DNA of 64,000 nt from Pectinatus haikarae (GTDB lineage Bacteria > Bacillota > Negativicutes > Selenomonadales > Selenomonadaceae), in NCBI RefSeq assembly GCF_015732185.1, contig NZ_WIQM01000011.1, positions 1-64,000 on the forward strand, in the 5' to 3' direction. Below, in pieces: positions 24,426 through 59,347 of this stretch (the stretch's first letter is position 1; the number at the start of each line of letters is the position of its first letter). The notes under the pieces were generated by a model. The model was not told where the DNA came from. It searched no databases and saw only the letters and a program-made list of their open reading frames with translations. The position numbers and the translations under genes were made by a program.

Positions 24426-27344
24426 ATGTCCAAATACAGAATATATGACCTGGCAAAAGAATTTGAAACTGACAGTAAGACAGTTTTGAATATGTTAAAA
24501 GTCCATAATGTAATAGTAAAAAGCCATGCTAGTACAGTGGGTGATGACGAACGAAAAATTATAGAAAAAAGTTTTCTGCGAAAGAAAAATATAATTGAGA
24601 AAAAAATTGAATCTGTGCGGGAGAATATATCAATAAAAGATAATCGGCAGAAAAATATAAAAAAAATTGATAATGACAGGTCTGATAATATAAATAATAT
24701 TAATGAAAACCTCGCTTTGAAAAAGCAGGGTTATGAAAAAAAACAAGTATATAAAGGTAATGATAATATAAAAACTACAATACAAAAAACAGCAGACAGC
24801 AATGTATACAGTAATGAAAGTGCAAAGGTACCTATTGAGAGAACACATAAAAATCAGCAGGCGTCTGAACATGACAGTCAAAGAAATCTGATGCACGCCA
24901 GTCAGGCCGCTGCTATTAATAGCAATGACCATAAACCAGTTGACAGAGGAGATAACCGAACAGCTGCTGGTAACAGATCTGGACAAGGCAATGGGAGTGG
25001 TATGGGCCAAAATAGCAGACCAGGGCAGAGTGACAGTGCTGGGCGCAACAGCAGACCGGGACAAAATAATAGTACCAGTCAAAATAATAGACCTGGTCAG
25101 AACAACAGTGTCGGTCGCAGCAGACCAGCACAAAATAATAGTACTAGTCAAAACAGATCTGGTCAGAATAATAGTGCTGGTCGCAGCAGACCGGGACAAA
25201 ATAATAGTACTAGTCAAAACAGACCCGGTCAGAGTAATAATGCTGGCCGCAACAGCAGACCGGGACAAAATAATAGTACCAGTCAAAATAGCAGACCAGG
25301 GCAGAACAACAGTGTCGGTCGCAGCAGACCAGGACAAAATACTACTACTGGACAAAATAGACCCGGTCAGAATAACAGTGCTGGTAGAAACAACAGACCA
25401 GGACAAAATAATAGTACTGGTCAAAATAGCAGTACTGGACAAAATAATAGACCCGGACAAAATAATAATGCAGGTCAAAATAATAGATATGGCAGCAGTC
25501 AAAATATAGGATCAAATAGAAACAGCAGAAAAAATTGGAGAAATAATAGAAATAACAGAAATCATCCTATACAGCAGAAACAGGAAATAGTGAGACCTAA
25601 GGTAATAAAAGTAGGAGAAACTATTTCTGTAAAAGAGTTGGCCAGTAAAATGACTTATACGGTCACCGATGTTATAAAGAAGCTTATGATGCTGGGAATA
25701 ATGACAACTATCAATCAAGAAATAGATTTTGATACAGCTGTACTGGTCGCTGCAGAATTCAGCATAAACGTTGAAGAACTGCCGCCGGAAGTGGACTTGA
25801 CGGAGATTCCCGAAGTTGAAGATGCAGAAAAAGATTTGTTGCCGCGTCCTCCTGTAGTTACGGTTATGGGACATGTTGACCATGGTAAGACATCTTTGCT
25901 CGATGTGATAAGAAAAACGTCTGTAACTTCGAGTGAAGCTGGCGGGATAACGCAGCACATCGGAGCTTATCAGGTTATGTGCAAGGATAAAAAAATTGTA
26001 TTTCTTGATACACCAGGACATGAGGCTTTCACGGCAATGCGTGCGCGCGGAGCACAGGTTACAGATATAGCGATCCTTGTTGTGGCTGCCGACGACGGCG
26101 TTATGCCGCAGACATTGGAAGCTATAAATCATGCTAAGGCAGCCAAAGTTCCTATTGTAGTGGCAATAAATAAAATTGATAAACCGGGAGCAAATCCGGA
26201 ACATGTTAAGCAGCAGCTCGCAGAGCATGAACTTGTTGCTGAAGACTGGGGTGGGGATATTATAATGGTTCCCGTCTCAGCTAAGAAAAAGATGGGTATA
26301 AATGATCTTCTGGAGATGATTTTACTAGTTGCGGAAATGCAGGAGCTGAAAGCAAATCCAAACAGAGAAGCCCGTGGTATAATCATAGAAGCTCAGCTTG
26401 ATAAAGGCCGCGGTCCCGTAGCTACAGTGCTTGTTCAAAGCGGCACACTGCATGTAGGAGATTCTATTATTGCAGGTACTGCCTTTGGTAAAGTCCGTGC
26501 CATGATCAATGATCGCGGTGAAAAAGTGAAGAAGGCTGGACCATCTGTTCCAGTTGAGGTCTTGGGCTTGTCAGATGTACCTGCTGCCGGTGATGAAATG
26601 GCTGTTTTGGAAGAACATATGGTACGTACAATAGCGGAAAAGCGTATTGGCAAACAACGTACAGAACTTATCAATAATAAGAAAGTATCACTTGATGATT
26701 TATTCCAACAGATAAATGAAGGAAACATAAAGGATCTTAATATATTATTGAAGGCTGATGTGCAAGGGTCTCTGGAAGCATTGAAGACTTCGTTGCTTGG
26801 TCTTAATAAAAGTGATGAAGTGCGAGTGAGTATAATTCACTCAGGTGTTGGCGCAGTGAATGAATCAGATGTTATGCTGGCGTCTGCGGCAAATGCTCTG
26901 ATCCTTGCTTTCAATGTGCGGCCGGATGGCAATGCAAGGAAACTTGCCGATACTGAAAGTATAGATATTCGTACTTATCGGGTAATATATGAAGCAATAA
27001 ACGATATCGAAGCTGCCATGAAGGGTATGCTTGCACCGAAATATAAAGAAATTATTCAGGGAAAAGTAGAAATACGCCAAGTGATGAAATTCTCCAAGGC
27101 TCTCGTGGCAGGTTCCTACGTCCTTGAAGGGAAAATTTTTAACACATCGAAAATACGTATTCTTCGCGATAATGTGGTCGTGCATGAAGGACAGATTGAG
27201 TCGTTGCGCCGATTTAAAGATGATGTAAAAGAAGTGGCTGCGGGATATGAATGCGGTATAACTATCGAAAACTATCGTGACTTTAGAGAAAAAGATATAA
27301 TCGAAGCTTACAGCATGGAAGAAATAGCTCCGCAGAGCTTATAA
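24426..27344 (+). CDS. infB: translation initiation factor IF-2 with expanded repeat linker
   Basis: An initiation GTPase of 972 residues that delivers fMet-tRNA to the 30S subunit. An IF2-N domain ([21 protein letters not shown]) is followed by a Lys/Asn-rich linker, then about 13 RPGQNNS-like repeats (nt 25000-25500) and a second IF2-N copy ([18 protein letters not shown]). The G domain follows, with GHVDHGKT (near residue 485), DTPGHEAF and NKIDKPGAN, then domains II-IV. GGGGGTGG before the ATG at 24426 sets the start; the frame is open nine codons further up. The factor is longer than most because of the repeat region. Confidence 0.97.
24990..25510 (+). repeat. degenerate tandem repeat in the infB linker
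   Basis: About 13 in-frame copies of a 10-13 residue unit with core RPGQNNS, alternating with TSQN, VGRS or AGRN. At the DNA level the recurring core is GACCAGGACAAAATAATAGT-like. Units differ in length and by synonymous changes. All indels preserve the reading frame. Confidence 0.85.
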
Positions 27345-33722: not shown

Positions 33723-33856
33723 ATAAATGGAGACTTAATTCAGACGGCGTTTTGACGCCGCCTGAATAGTAGTCGAAATTATCCAGGGAGTTAGCCGCTC
33801 TTTACTCACCGCTTGCAAAAGCGGGAGTATTAGAGCGGGTTAGTCATCGGATAAAA
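33723..33856. repeat. 134-bp structured repeat element, copy 1
   Basis: Identical to 59214-59347 except at three positions, with no gaps. Hairpin 1 (33732-33774): GACT/AGTC, ATTCAG/CTGAAT and CGGCG/CGCCG around a TTTTGA loop. Hairpin 2 (33779-33854): TTATCC/GGATAA, CCGCTCT/AGAGCGG, then TACTC/GAGTA and CCGCTT/AAGCGG around a GCAA tetraloop, with one bulged A. It starts right after a stop codon and ends at GGATAAAA. It lies between convergent genes. No ORF. A mobile REP/MITE-like element or structured RNA; the family is unknown to me. Confidence 0.9.
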
Positions 33857-33868
33857 TCAGGATTAGTG

Positions 33869-33912
33869 AAAAATAAGTTCAAGGATAAACAAATATCCCT
33901 GAACTTATTTTT
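33869..33912. terminator. bidirectional terminator between convergent genes
   Basis: AAAATAAGTTCA and TGAACTTATTTT pair, with GGATA/TATCC continuing inside beyond an A/C mismatch. It ends both the sialyltransferase-like gene and the long minus-strand LPS operon, and includes the GT4 stop codon. Confidence 0.85.
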
Positions 33913-34987
33913 GGGGCTGGGAACATTCGTTGTACAGAGAAATAATCTCATCAAACATTTTTTCAGGAGAAAAACGGGAAATAATATCGTTTCTGGCGGC
34001 TTGACCCATCTGAAGACGCAAGATAGTATTTGCTGCTAATAATTTGAGTTTGCTGTACAAGATCTCACAATTTCCGCTGGGGATGAGGTATCCTGTTTTA
34101 CCATCGGTAATAACTTCACCTGTGCCGCCGACATCATAGGCGAGCGCGGGTTTTTTCATTGCCATTCCTTCAGCGAGGACCAGACCAAAGGTTTCAAAAC
34201 GTGATGGCAGAACAATCACATCGGCAGCAGACAGATAATTTTCCACATCGGGTTTATGACCAAGAAAATGTACTCGGTCTGTCAATCCATTTTTCCATAT
34301 TTGATAACGCAATTTCCACTTGCCCTTACCGGTACCGATAATCAGTAAATGCCAGTCTGCAGCACCGGTTTGTTCTGATAAAAGTTTGATAAGATGCTGA
34401 TGGCCCTTATTGCGGAGATTTTTTATCCGGGCAGTAATTGCCAGGCAGAAAGTTTTGTCAGCTATATTTAATCTCTTGCGAAGATCATTACGATTATCGT
34501 GAGGAGAAAATTTTTCGGTATCAACACCATTATAAATAACTTTTACTTTTTCCGGTATGGCACCGTTTTCTAAAGCAATGTGGTATACATATTGACTCAC
34601 GGCTATTATTTTATCACACTGCATAAGAATCCTTTCTTTTCTGCTGCCGAACAAGCCGTGTGCAGTATAAAGAACCGGCAGATCAGGCAAATATTTTAAC
34701 TTGCATTTTACTGCCGTGATACCTGCAGCAGCAGAATGAGCATGGACAAGCTCTATATCATATTTTTTTATTATGAATTTGAGAAAAAATGCCGCAAGAG
34801 AAGTGTTCAGCCGCAATGGCAGGAATATCTGAGAAATTCCCTTGGCAGCCAGCTTATCGGCAAGCTGTCCGCCGCCGGAAACAACGATAACATTATGACC
34901 GTTTTTCTGAAGAAGGGGAGCAAGCATAGCAACGTGACTTTCGGCACCGCCTATATTCATTCTTGGTACAAGAAGAAGAATATTCAT
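33905..34987 (-). CDS. glycosyltransferase family 4
   Basis: A 360-residue retaining GT-B enzyme. It begins NILLLVPRMNIGGAESHVAML, has ITARIKNLRNKGHQHLIKLL, and the donor-binding EX7E motif in SRFETFGLVLAEGMAMKKP. Such proteins transfer mannose, glucose, GlcNAc or similar to lipid-linked or LPS glycans; the sugar cannot be read. It overlaps the Stealth gene by four bases and is last in the seven-gene LPS operon. Confidence 0.88.
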   Translation of the reverse strand: MNILLLVPRMNIGGAESHVAMLAPLLQKNGHNVIVVSGGGQLADKLAAKGISQIFLPLRLNTSLAAFFLKFIIKKYDIELVHAHSAAAGITAVKCKLKYLPDLPVLYTAHGLFGSRKERILMQCDKIIAVSQYVYHIALENGAIPEKVKVIYNGVDTEKFSPHDNRNDLRKRLNIADKTFCLAITARIKNLRNKGHQHLIKLLSEQTGAADWHLLIIGTGKGKWKLRYQIWKNGLTDRVHFLGHKPDVENYLSAADVIVLPSRFETFGLVLAEGMAMKKPALAYDVGGTGEVITDGKTGYLIPSGNCEILYSKLKLLAANTILRLQMGQAARNDIISRFSPEKMFDEIISLYNECSQPQK

Positions 34988-58278: not shown

Positions 58279-59217
58279 GTGGAATTTCATCATATAAGTG
58301 TTATGGCTGATGAAGTTATTGAAAACTTAAAAATAAAGCCAAATGGAATATATGTCGACTGCACTCTGGGCGGTGCCGGACATTCTTCCCGCATTGCCGG
58401 GGCACTGAATGAACAGGGTGTCTTATTGGGGATAGATCAGGATACTGAGGCAGTGAATGCCGCAAAGGAAAGACTGGCGCATTGTGTCTGCGATGTCAGG
58501 ATCATACATGATAATTTTGCGCATCTTGAGCAAATACTTATTGATCAGGGAATAGAAAAGGCAGACGGTTTTTTGTTTGACCTGGGTGTTTCCTCACATC
58601 AAATTGACGATGCCGGGCGCGGTTTTTCTTATATGCATGACGCAATTTTGGATATGAGAATGGATAAAGATGCGAAACTCACGGCTCAAATTGTTGTCAA
58701 TGAGTATAGTCAGGAACGGCTGACTGAAATAATAAAAAACTATGGTGAAGAAAGATGGGCAAAAAGAATAGCGGCATTTATAGCAGAAACCAGAAAAACA
58801 ACTCCAATACAGACTACGGGACAGTTGGTGGATGTTATAAGGAGAGCAATCCCTGCCGCAGTTCGCAAAAATATGCAGGGGCATCCTGCTAAGAGAGTTT
58901 TTCAGGCTGTCAGAATAGAAGTCAACAATGAGTTGAATATTTTGGAAGAATCTTTTAAATGTGCTGTACGGCACTTAAATAAGAATGGCAGACTTGCTAT
59001 AATAACTTTTCATTCATTAGAGGATAGAATTGCTAAAAATACCCTTAGGCTTATGGCCAGAGGCTGTATCTGTCCGCCGGAAGTTCCTTTTTGTGTATGC
59101 GGACATGAAAAACAGCTGAAGCTCTGCGGCAGGGCGGCCACTCCGTCTGAAACTGAAACAGACGATAACTCCAGAGCCAGAAGTGCTAAACTGCGCGTCG
59201 CGGAGAAAATAATATAA
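58279..59217 (+). CDS. rsmH: 16S rRNA (cytosine(1402)-N4)-methyltransferase RsmH (MraW)
   Basis: A 312-residue SAM-dependent methyltransferase acting on C1402 of 16S rRNA. It begins FHHISVMADEVIENL, has YVDCTLGGAGHSSRI for SAM binding, FLFDLGVSSHQIDDAGRGFSY, HPAKRVFQAVRIEVN and ITFHSLEDRI. The start is GTG after AGGGGGAAG. Its stop codon TAA appears to be supplied by the first bases of repeat copy 2. Opening gene of the division/cell-wall cluster. Confidence 0.96.
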   Translation: MEFHHISVMADEVIENLKIKPNGIYVDCTLGGAGHSSRIAGALNEQGVLLGIDQDTEAVNAAKERLAHCVCDVRIIHDNFAHLEQILIDQGIEKADGFLFDLGVSSHQIDDAGRGFSYMHDAILDMRMDKDAKLTAQIVVNEYSQERLTEIIKNYGEERWAKRIAAFIAETRKTTPIQTTGQLVDVIRRAIPAAVRKNMQGHPAKRVFQAVRIEVNNELNILEESFKCAVRHLNKNGRLAIITFHSLEDRIAKNTLRLMARGCICPPEVPFCVCGHEKQLKLCGRAATPSETETDDNSRARSAKLRVAEKII

Positions 59218-59347
59218 ATGGAGACTTAATTCAGACGGCGTTTTGACGCCGCCTGAATAGTAGTCGAAATTATCCAGGAAGTTAGCCGCTCTTTACTCAC
59301 CGCTTGCAGAAGCAGGAGTATTAGAGCGGGTTAGTCATCGGATAAAA
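59214..59347. repeat. 134-bp structured repeat element, copy 2
   Basis: The same element as 33723-33856, in the same orientation. The differences are G to A in CCAGGAAGTT and two changes in hairpin 2 (tetraloop GCAG instead of GCAA, and one stem base giving a C-A mismatch). Hairpin 1 is unchanged. It fills most of the gap between rsmH and ftsL, so the two would be transcribed through it if they share a transcript. Confidence 0.9.

Follow-up and report, generated by a model that had tools for sequence, protein, structure and literature searches.

A 134-bp element built of two hairpins, present twice in the window (the whole stretch of Pectinatus haikarae DNA analysed here, 64,000 nucleotides), is very probably a non-autonomous mobile DNA repeat that measures ~128 bp, to which one 5-base target repeat is added, and that inserts at ATAAA. 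It is very likely mobile and dependent on functions provided in trans; insertion at ATAAA and spread, and thereby mobility, are shown by the comparison of genomes. The element represents a new family of gene-less mobile palindromic repeats, a kind of repeat already known, and departs from the known ones in the breadth of its distribution, the lack of terminal inverted repeats, the strict target and the lack of a known mover. We refer to it as a non-autonomous, target-specific REP/MITE-like repeat; membership in IS200/IS605 or in REP/RAYT is not established.

Copies and structure of the element

The features of the two window copies are collected in Table 1. As described in the first-pass annotation, the copies can be aligned without gaps with 131/134 identity (three base differences; family D3 of the repeat finder), their flanks are unrelated to each other and there is no ORF inside the element. 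The two copies were thus correctly recognized, but the scale was missed: in the searched assembly (3.11 Mb, 17 contigs, 99.6% complete) there are ~26 copies, 15 of them full-length (91-100% identity to copy 1) and 11 internally deleted. No two copies are identical, which suggests that the latest burst is not brand new. In the shortened copies hairpin 1, the whole of hairpin 2 or just its tip is gone, and the deletion junctions, as read, lie between internal short direct repeats (GACTTA, TAGTC, GGGAGT). The element decays by such internal deletions, and judged from their sequences the shortened copies would fit what replication slippage over hairpins leaves behind.

Table 1. Coordinates of the two element copies and their parts in the window
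Feature	Position	Strand	Remarks
Element copy 1, full length	33723..33856	+	Between convergent glycosyltransferase-type genes
Copy 1 left ATAAA, target-site repeat	33723..33727	+	Exact ATAAA left of 22/26 own-genome copies; one ATAAA/ATAA in element-free relatives at five loci
Copy 1 hairpin 1	33732..33774	+	GACT...AGTC foot, inner GC-rich stem; based on folds and compensatory changes
Copy 1 GACTTA opening hairpin 1	33732-33737	+	Proposed guide-like motif; putative guide role
Copy 1 hairpin 2	33779..33854	+	TTATCC...GGATAA foot; based on folds and compensatory changes
GAGTTA in copy 1 hairpin 2	33788-33793	+	Position where family consensus GACTTA precedes the inner stem
Copy 1 right ATAAA	33851..33855	+	GTTAGTCATCGG immediately before
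Element copy 2, full length	59214..59347	+	Between rsmH and ftsL
Copy 2 left ATAAA	59214..59218	+	Contains TAA stop of rsmH
Copy 2 hairpin 1	59223..59265	+	Same register as copy 1
Copy 2 hairpin 2	59270..59345	+	Same register as copy 1
Copy 2 right ATAAA	59342..59346	+	–

The position of copy 1 between convergent genes was confirmed (a POLYST-like glycosyltransferase and a group 1 glycosyltransferase). Directly after this copy, at 33864-33913, there is an inverted repeat (AAAAATAAGTTCAAGGATA / TATCCCTGAACTTATTTTT) that has T-runs on either strand and is likely the shared terminator of the two convergent genes; copy 1 is located between a stop codon and this putative terminator. Elsewhere in the window (25016-25504) degenerate tandem repeats with 18-nt and 92-nt registers were noticed, which resemble N/Q/G/R-rich coding sequence.

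Copy 1 folds with -36.6 kcal/mol (z -8.6) as DNA and with -59.9 kcal/mol (z -8.1) as RNA, and none of 200 shuffled sequences folded equally well. The two hairpins described in the first-pass annotation are thus real, and the loop of hairpin 1 is T-rich. Two details of that description fared less well. The GCAA (GNRA) tetraloop occurs only in copy 1 and a few others, whereas most copies have GCAG, and the GNRA argument therefore carries no weight; the family does not share the GGAG that hairpin 1 has at its foot, GACTT being conserved instead. The order of parts, from left to right, is ATAAA, 1 to 5 variable bases, GACTT, stem 1, TAGTC, TTATCC, AGG, GACTTA, stem 2, GTTAGTC, ATCGG and ATAAA. The two halves are alike in having GACTTA before and TAGTC after the stem. 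GACTTA stands 5' of both inner stems and could base-pair with ATAA through its CTTA(T), but several genera have CTTG as the left motif.

When 37 full-length copies were aligned, a common structure with 96.2% of the cells paired was obtained; the right end is over-represented in this set, since most copies came from a search with a right-end pattern. Compensatory changes were found at 9/24 pairs, and the covariation score was 0.314, as compared to 0.140 for shuffled alignments and at most 0.143 when the alignment was slid. The most conserved part of the family is GTTAGTCATCGG, just before the right ATAAA, as judged from this alignment, biased to the right end by the search pattern, and from a motif search allowing two mismatches. 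The right end is fixed (GTTAG-CATCGG), whereas the left end differs among genera (TGGAGACTT, TGAGACTTG, GTAAGACTTG, GAAGACTTG). Subterminal hairpins are present at both ends, and terminal inverted repeats are lacking: all that the left end TGGAGACTTAA and the reverse complement of the right end, CCGATGACTAAC, have in common is subterminal GACT(T)AA. Some copies (L146, L153, L158, L118, L169 and L180) carry additional hairpins nested inside the stems, such as the extra hairpin CCTGTGCCCTTTGGGTATA...TATACCCTAAAGGGCACAGG of the Sporomusa copy L158, which looks like nested palindrome growth.

A conserved two-hairpin structure with compensatory changes could also belong to a structured RNA acting after transcription (a 3' UTR element or a small RNA), spread or retained for its function. 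On the + strand G-U pairs outnumber A-C mismatches 57:15, mostly owing to two poorly aligned pairs, and several copies lie in sense directly behind a stop codon. However, conservation of the hairpins is equally expected from recognition of single-stranded DNA, and the location behind stop codons follows from the ATAAA target: in five own-genome copies, including the one at rsmH (where the stop codon, 59215-59217, makes up bases 2-4 of the left ATAAA), the TAA stop of the host gene is inside the left ATAAA. The copies in the genome occupy unrelated contexts with no consistent neighbouring gene, most Selenomonadaceae relatives lack the element by BLAST, large deletions are frequent among the copies and no Rfam model matches. 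Taken together, an RNA function is an improbable explanation. In one case (L009) the upstream gene, owing to the insertion, runs on into the element and acquires the new C-terminus NMINGDLMQKAF, and by their sequences some copies are thus predicted to alter proteins.

Insertion sites and distribution

Full copies start with ATAAA or a one-base variant and finish with ATCGG-ATAAA or a one-base variant; in Schwartzia and Anaerovibrio all 23 copies that were read have ATAAA at both ends. The joined flanks of 12 copies led to homologous sites in four congeneric genomes. Three relatives have the uninterrupted sequence TTGATAAATT at the L006 site; it is exactly what is left of the occupied sequence once the element and one ATAAA are taken away. 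The L009 site reads ATGATAAAATAA in one element-free relative, the L021 site has ATAA or ATAGA at the stop codon in element-free relatives, and the L016 site has ATAA, with no element, in all four. A fifth example comes from Syntrophomonas wolfei, where CCCTATAAAAACTT in strain Goettingen corresponds to CCCTGTAAA[element ending ATAAA]AGCTT in subsp. methylbutyratica. A comparison of empty sites had been suggested in the first-pass annotation for rsmH-ftsL; at five loci element-free relatives show an uninterrupted target with ATAAA or ATAA, indicating insertion at a fixed short sequence. These uninterrupted sites demonstrate mobility by comparison. The element inserts at ATAAA, often A-TAA-A containing a stop codon, and ATAAA is then found at both ends.

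ATAAA occurs twice around the element and once in element-free sites, which is compatible with target duplication as well as with an element-encoded end. Copy L011 has ATTAA at both ends. In another carrier genome (G531) the right ATAAA seems, as read off the list of right-end motifs, more variable than the neighbouring TTAGTCATCGG, and this variability would suit a target duplication no less well than an end encoded by the element. These observations are among the arguments for a classical MITE served by a DDE transposase, which would act by a cut-and-paste or replicative route, produce a 5-bp ATAAA duplication and recognize imperfect ends. Direct repeats of equal length at both ends with a single copy in the element-free sites, the concerted change in L011, the variable right pentamer of G531 and the lack of strand preference (see below) would all be explained. 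Against it stand the absence of terminal inverted repeats, the left end that varies by genus next to a fixed right end, and the nearly invariant 5-base target, which is to our knowledge unusual for DDE enzymes. A DDE-type enzyme making a 5-bp duplication, a class surveyed here with respect to IS110 only, is on balance somewhat unlikely, but it ranks nearly as likely as the IS200/IS605-like route discussed below.

In four other genomes of the genus no copy was found by BLAST, apart from one weak 39-base match. When 189 genomes of the bacterial family were searched by BLAST, two genera had diverged copies of full length, and three more genomes gave weak matches; with a second query ~40 near-complete matches (40 of 210 candidates scored) were obtained in Schwartzia and dozens in Anaerovibrio. 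The right-end pattern was found in at least 113 stretches of GTDB genomes, in Sporomusa, Pelosinus, Massilibacillus, Anaerovibrio, Schwartzia, Desulfosporosinus, Syntrophomonas, other Clostridia and Clostridium ragsdalei. Diverged copies with the same architecture and compensatory changes in the stems are present in Anaerovibrio, Schwartzia, Sporomusa, Pelosinus, Massilibacillus, Desulfosporosinus and Syntrophomonas. The wider search with a covariance model, proposed in the first-pass annotation, detected the element, at an E-value of 1e-4, in at least 41/398 sampled Bacillota genomes and at least 33/266 genera; these are lower bounds, as only eight candidates per genome were scored. The element is thus found in roughly one in ten of the sampled Firmicutes genomes, and its distribution in Bacillota is widespread but patchy.

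With ~26 copies in the genome and further copies in relatives, the element is neither restricted to two places nor absent from related bacteria, and no already described repeat or RNA family could be matched to it: none of the curated covariance models in Rfam fits, and a literature search, which mostly excluded subscription papers, yielded no description and no relevant paper with the conserved sequence. There was no match in the phage and plasmid collections INPHARED, PLSDB and IMG/VR. Of the first-pass proposal of a REP/MITE-like element moved in trans, mobility is upheld by the many copies, the patchy spread and the uninterrupted target sites; the link to a RAYT is not.

Candidate mobilising enzymes

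The architecture suggests a single-strand route similar to that of IS200/IS605. In IS608 the cleavage site is recognized through base pairing with a guide sequence beside each hairpin (PMC6006769, PMC5934647). By analogy, a trans-acting enzyme would read the folded single strand, GACTTA 5' of each hairpin stem would serve as guide and ATAAA at each end as cleavage site, so that the element would work as fused left and right IS200/IS605 ends. Like IS200/IS605 elements (IS608, ISDra2) and their non-autonomous derivatives, it lacks terminal inverted repeats, has a hairpin near each end and uses one fixed short insertion sequence; the motif repeated 5' of each hairpin might, through CTTA(T), pair with ATAA of the putative cleavage site. 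Unlike them, it carries one and the same ATAAA at its two ends instead of a distinct cleavage tetranucleotide at each, and it has no linked or consistently present Y1 transposase.

Elements of the IS608 type favour the lagging strand. In contrast, the orientation of 55 copies relative to distant genes was 29:26 (p 0.79), which, for an indirect proxy in partly fragmented genomes, shows no lagging-strand preference. Because Y1 is absent from some positive genomes, strand preference is lacking and the left motif is CTTG in other genera, the IS200/IS605-like single-strand route is weakened, and we regard it as possible rather than probable.

The genome of P. haikarae contains three near-identical IS200 copies (L031, L032 and L033, outside the window), inserted in the T-runs of terminators and starting with TTGTATAAAAGAAAACCACGCG. 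Their ends and target context differ from those of the element, and they were rejected as helpers. The Y1 domain PF01797 was found in 20/28 positive genomes and was absent from 8/28, among them G531, which has 50 right-end motifs (search allowing two mismatches). Y2 (IS91-like) and IS110 enzymes were likewise rejected, being absent above cut-off from the own genome and from G531. An autonomous copy was not found either: in the own genome the right-end motifs are those of known copies in all but two weak cases, inspection by eye of the regions that precede 18 divergent right ends showed no transposase-like ORF, and the 2.4 Mb of S. wolfei that were examined contained no such copy.

In the first-pass annotation a REP-like sequence that depends on a REP-associated tyrosine transposase (RAYT) had been suggested. 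The element is small, palindromic, gene-less and mainly intergenic with tens of copies, as are REP/BIME/REPIN sequences with TnpA-REP (RAYT), and long RAYT-like Y1 genes are present in several positive genomes. However, the search for RAYT and IS200 found no linked enzyme: no RAYT was detected in the own genome, Y1 is missing from the 8 positive genomes mentioned above, and none of 44 Y1 transposase loci has an element within 1.5 kb. In S. wolfei the RAYT-like genes sit among other palindromes, of the GTGCCAGGCAC or GGGACAGTCCC type. REP sequences are defined by a GTAG/GTGG tetranucleotide at the foot of the hairpin (PMC3733652, PMC6006769); this tag is absent from the element, which has GACTT conserved there. 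Moreover, in contrast to REP sequences, the element is ~130 bp long with two different hairpins in direct order, and unlike species-specific REPs it spans many bacterial families and has defined ATAAA insertion sites. The RAYT association was thus rejected as very improbable. As a separate observation, the S. wolfei RAYT-like Y1 genes (255-301 aa; genome G203, near 154505, 172577, 192854 and 1202866) with their own palindromes (GTGCCAGGCAC, GGGACAGTCCC, GGGGACGTTTCGTTTGTC) resemble a separate REP/RAYT system of Firmicutes.

Spread in a SINE-like manner, in which a group II intron or another reverse transcriptase copies the folded transcript into DNA and inserts it at ATAAA, would suit a structured unit that has no ORF and no terminal inverted repeats, inserts at an A/T-rich site and occurs in some genomes devoid of the tested DNA transposases. 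Its 5' and 3' ends are, however, exact in nearly all copies, which is atypical of target-primed reverse transcription; we regard this route as highly unlikely. At least one complete genome that has dozens of copies lacks the usual HUH enzymes (Y1, Y2) and IS110. The element might be an old, Bacillota-wide, gene-less two-hairpin family mobilised at ATAAA by an enzyme class not yet tied to such repeats, a reading that we put forward as a speculative one, with less than even confidence.

Related repeats and significance

RUP, BOX, Correia/NEMIS, ERIC and RU-1 resemble the element in being non-coding, ~100-170 bp long, mobile in trans and located near genes. Those of them that are MITEs carry terminal inverted repeats and, as a rule, TA duplications, whereas the element has neither. 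A ~220 bp repeat of Clostridium ragsdalei P11 (L126, L129, L175) shares the right-hand hairpin and the GTTAGTCATCGGATAAA end, but its left half, beginning with GGCATTTTCAAAGAA, is unrelated, which shows that the right module can join other left modules. In Syntrophomonas another interspersed repeat of ~140 bp, GCGACCGTAGGGAACATCAG..., was noticed (right flank of L121; S. wolfei Goettingen 452821-452960 and 1339438-1339573).

Short mobile repeats seldom extend beyond one species or genus and can usually be traced to an insertion sequence. The family described here has kept its structure and right end across Negativicutes and several lineages of Clostridia, with one five-base target and no known mover. 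With its ends, target, structure and clean empty sites, the element is a defined substrate for finding its enzyme, and it explains many unannotated hairpins behind stop codons of Firmicutes genes, including the one at the rsmH-ftsL junction.
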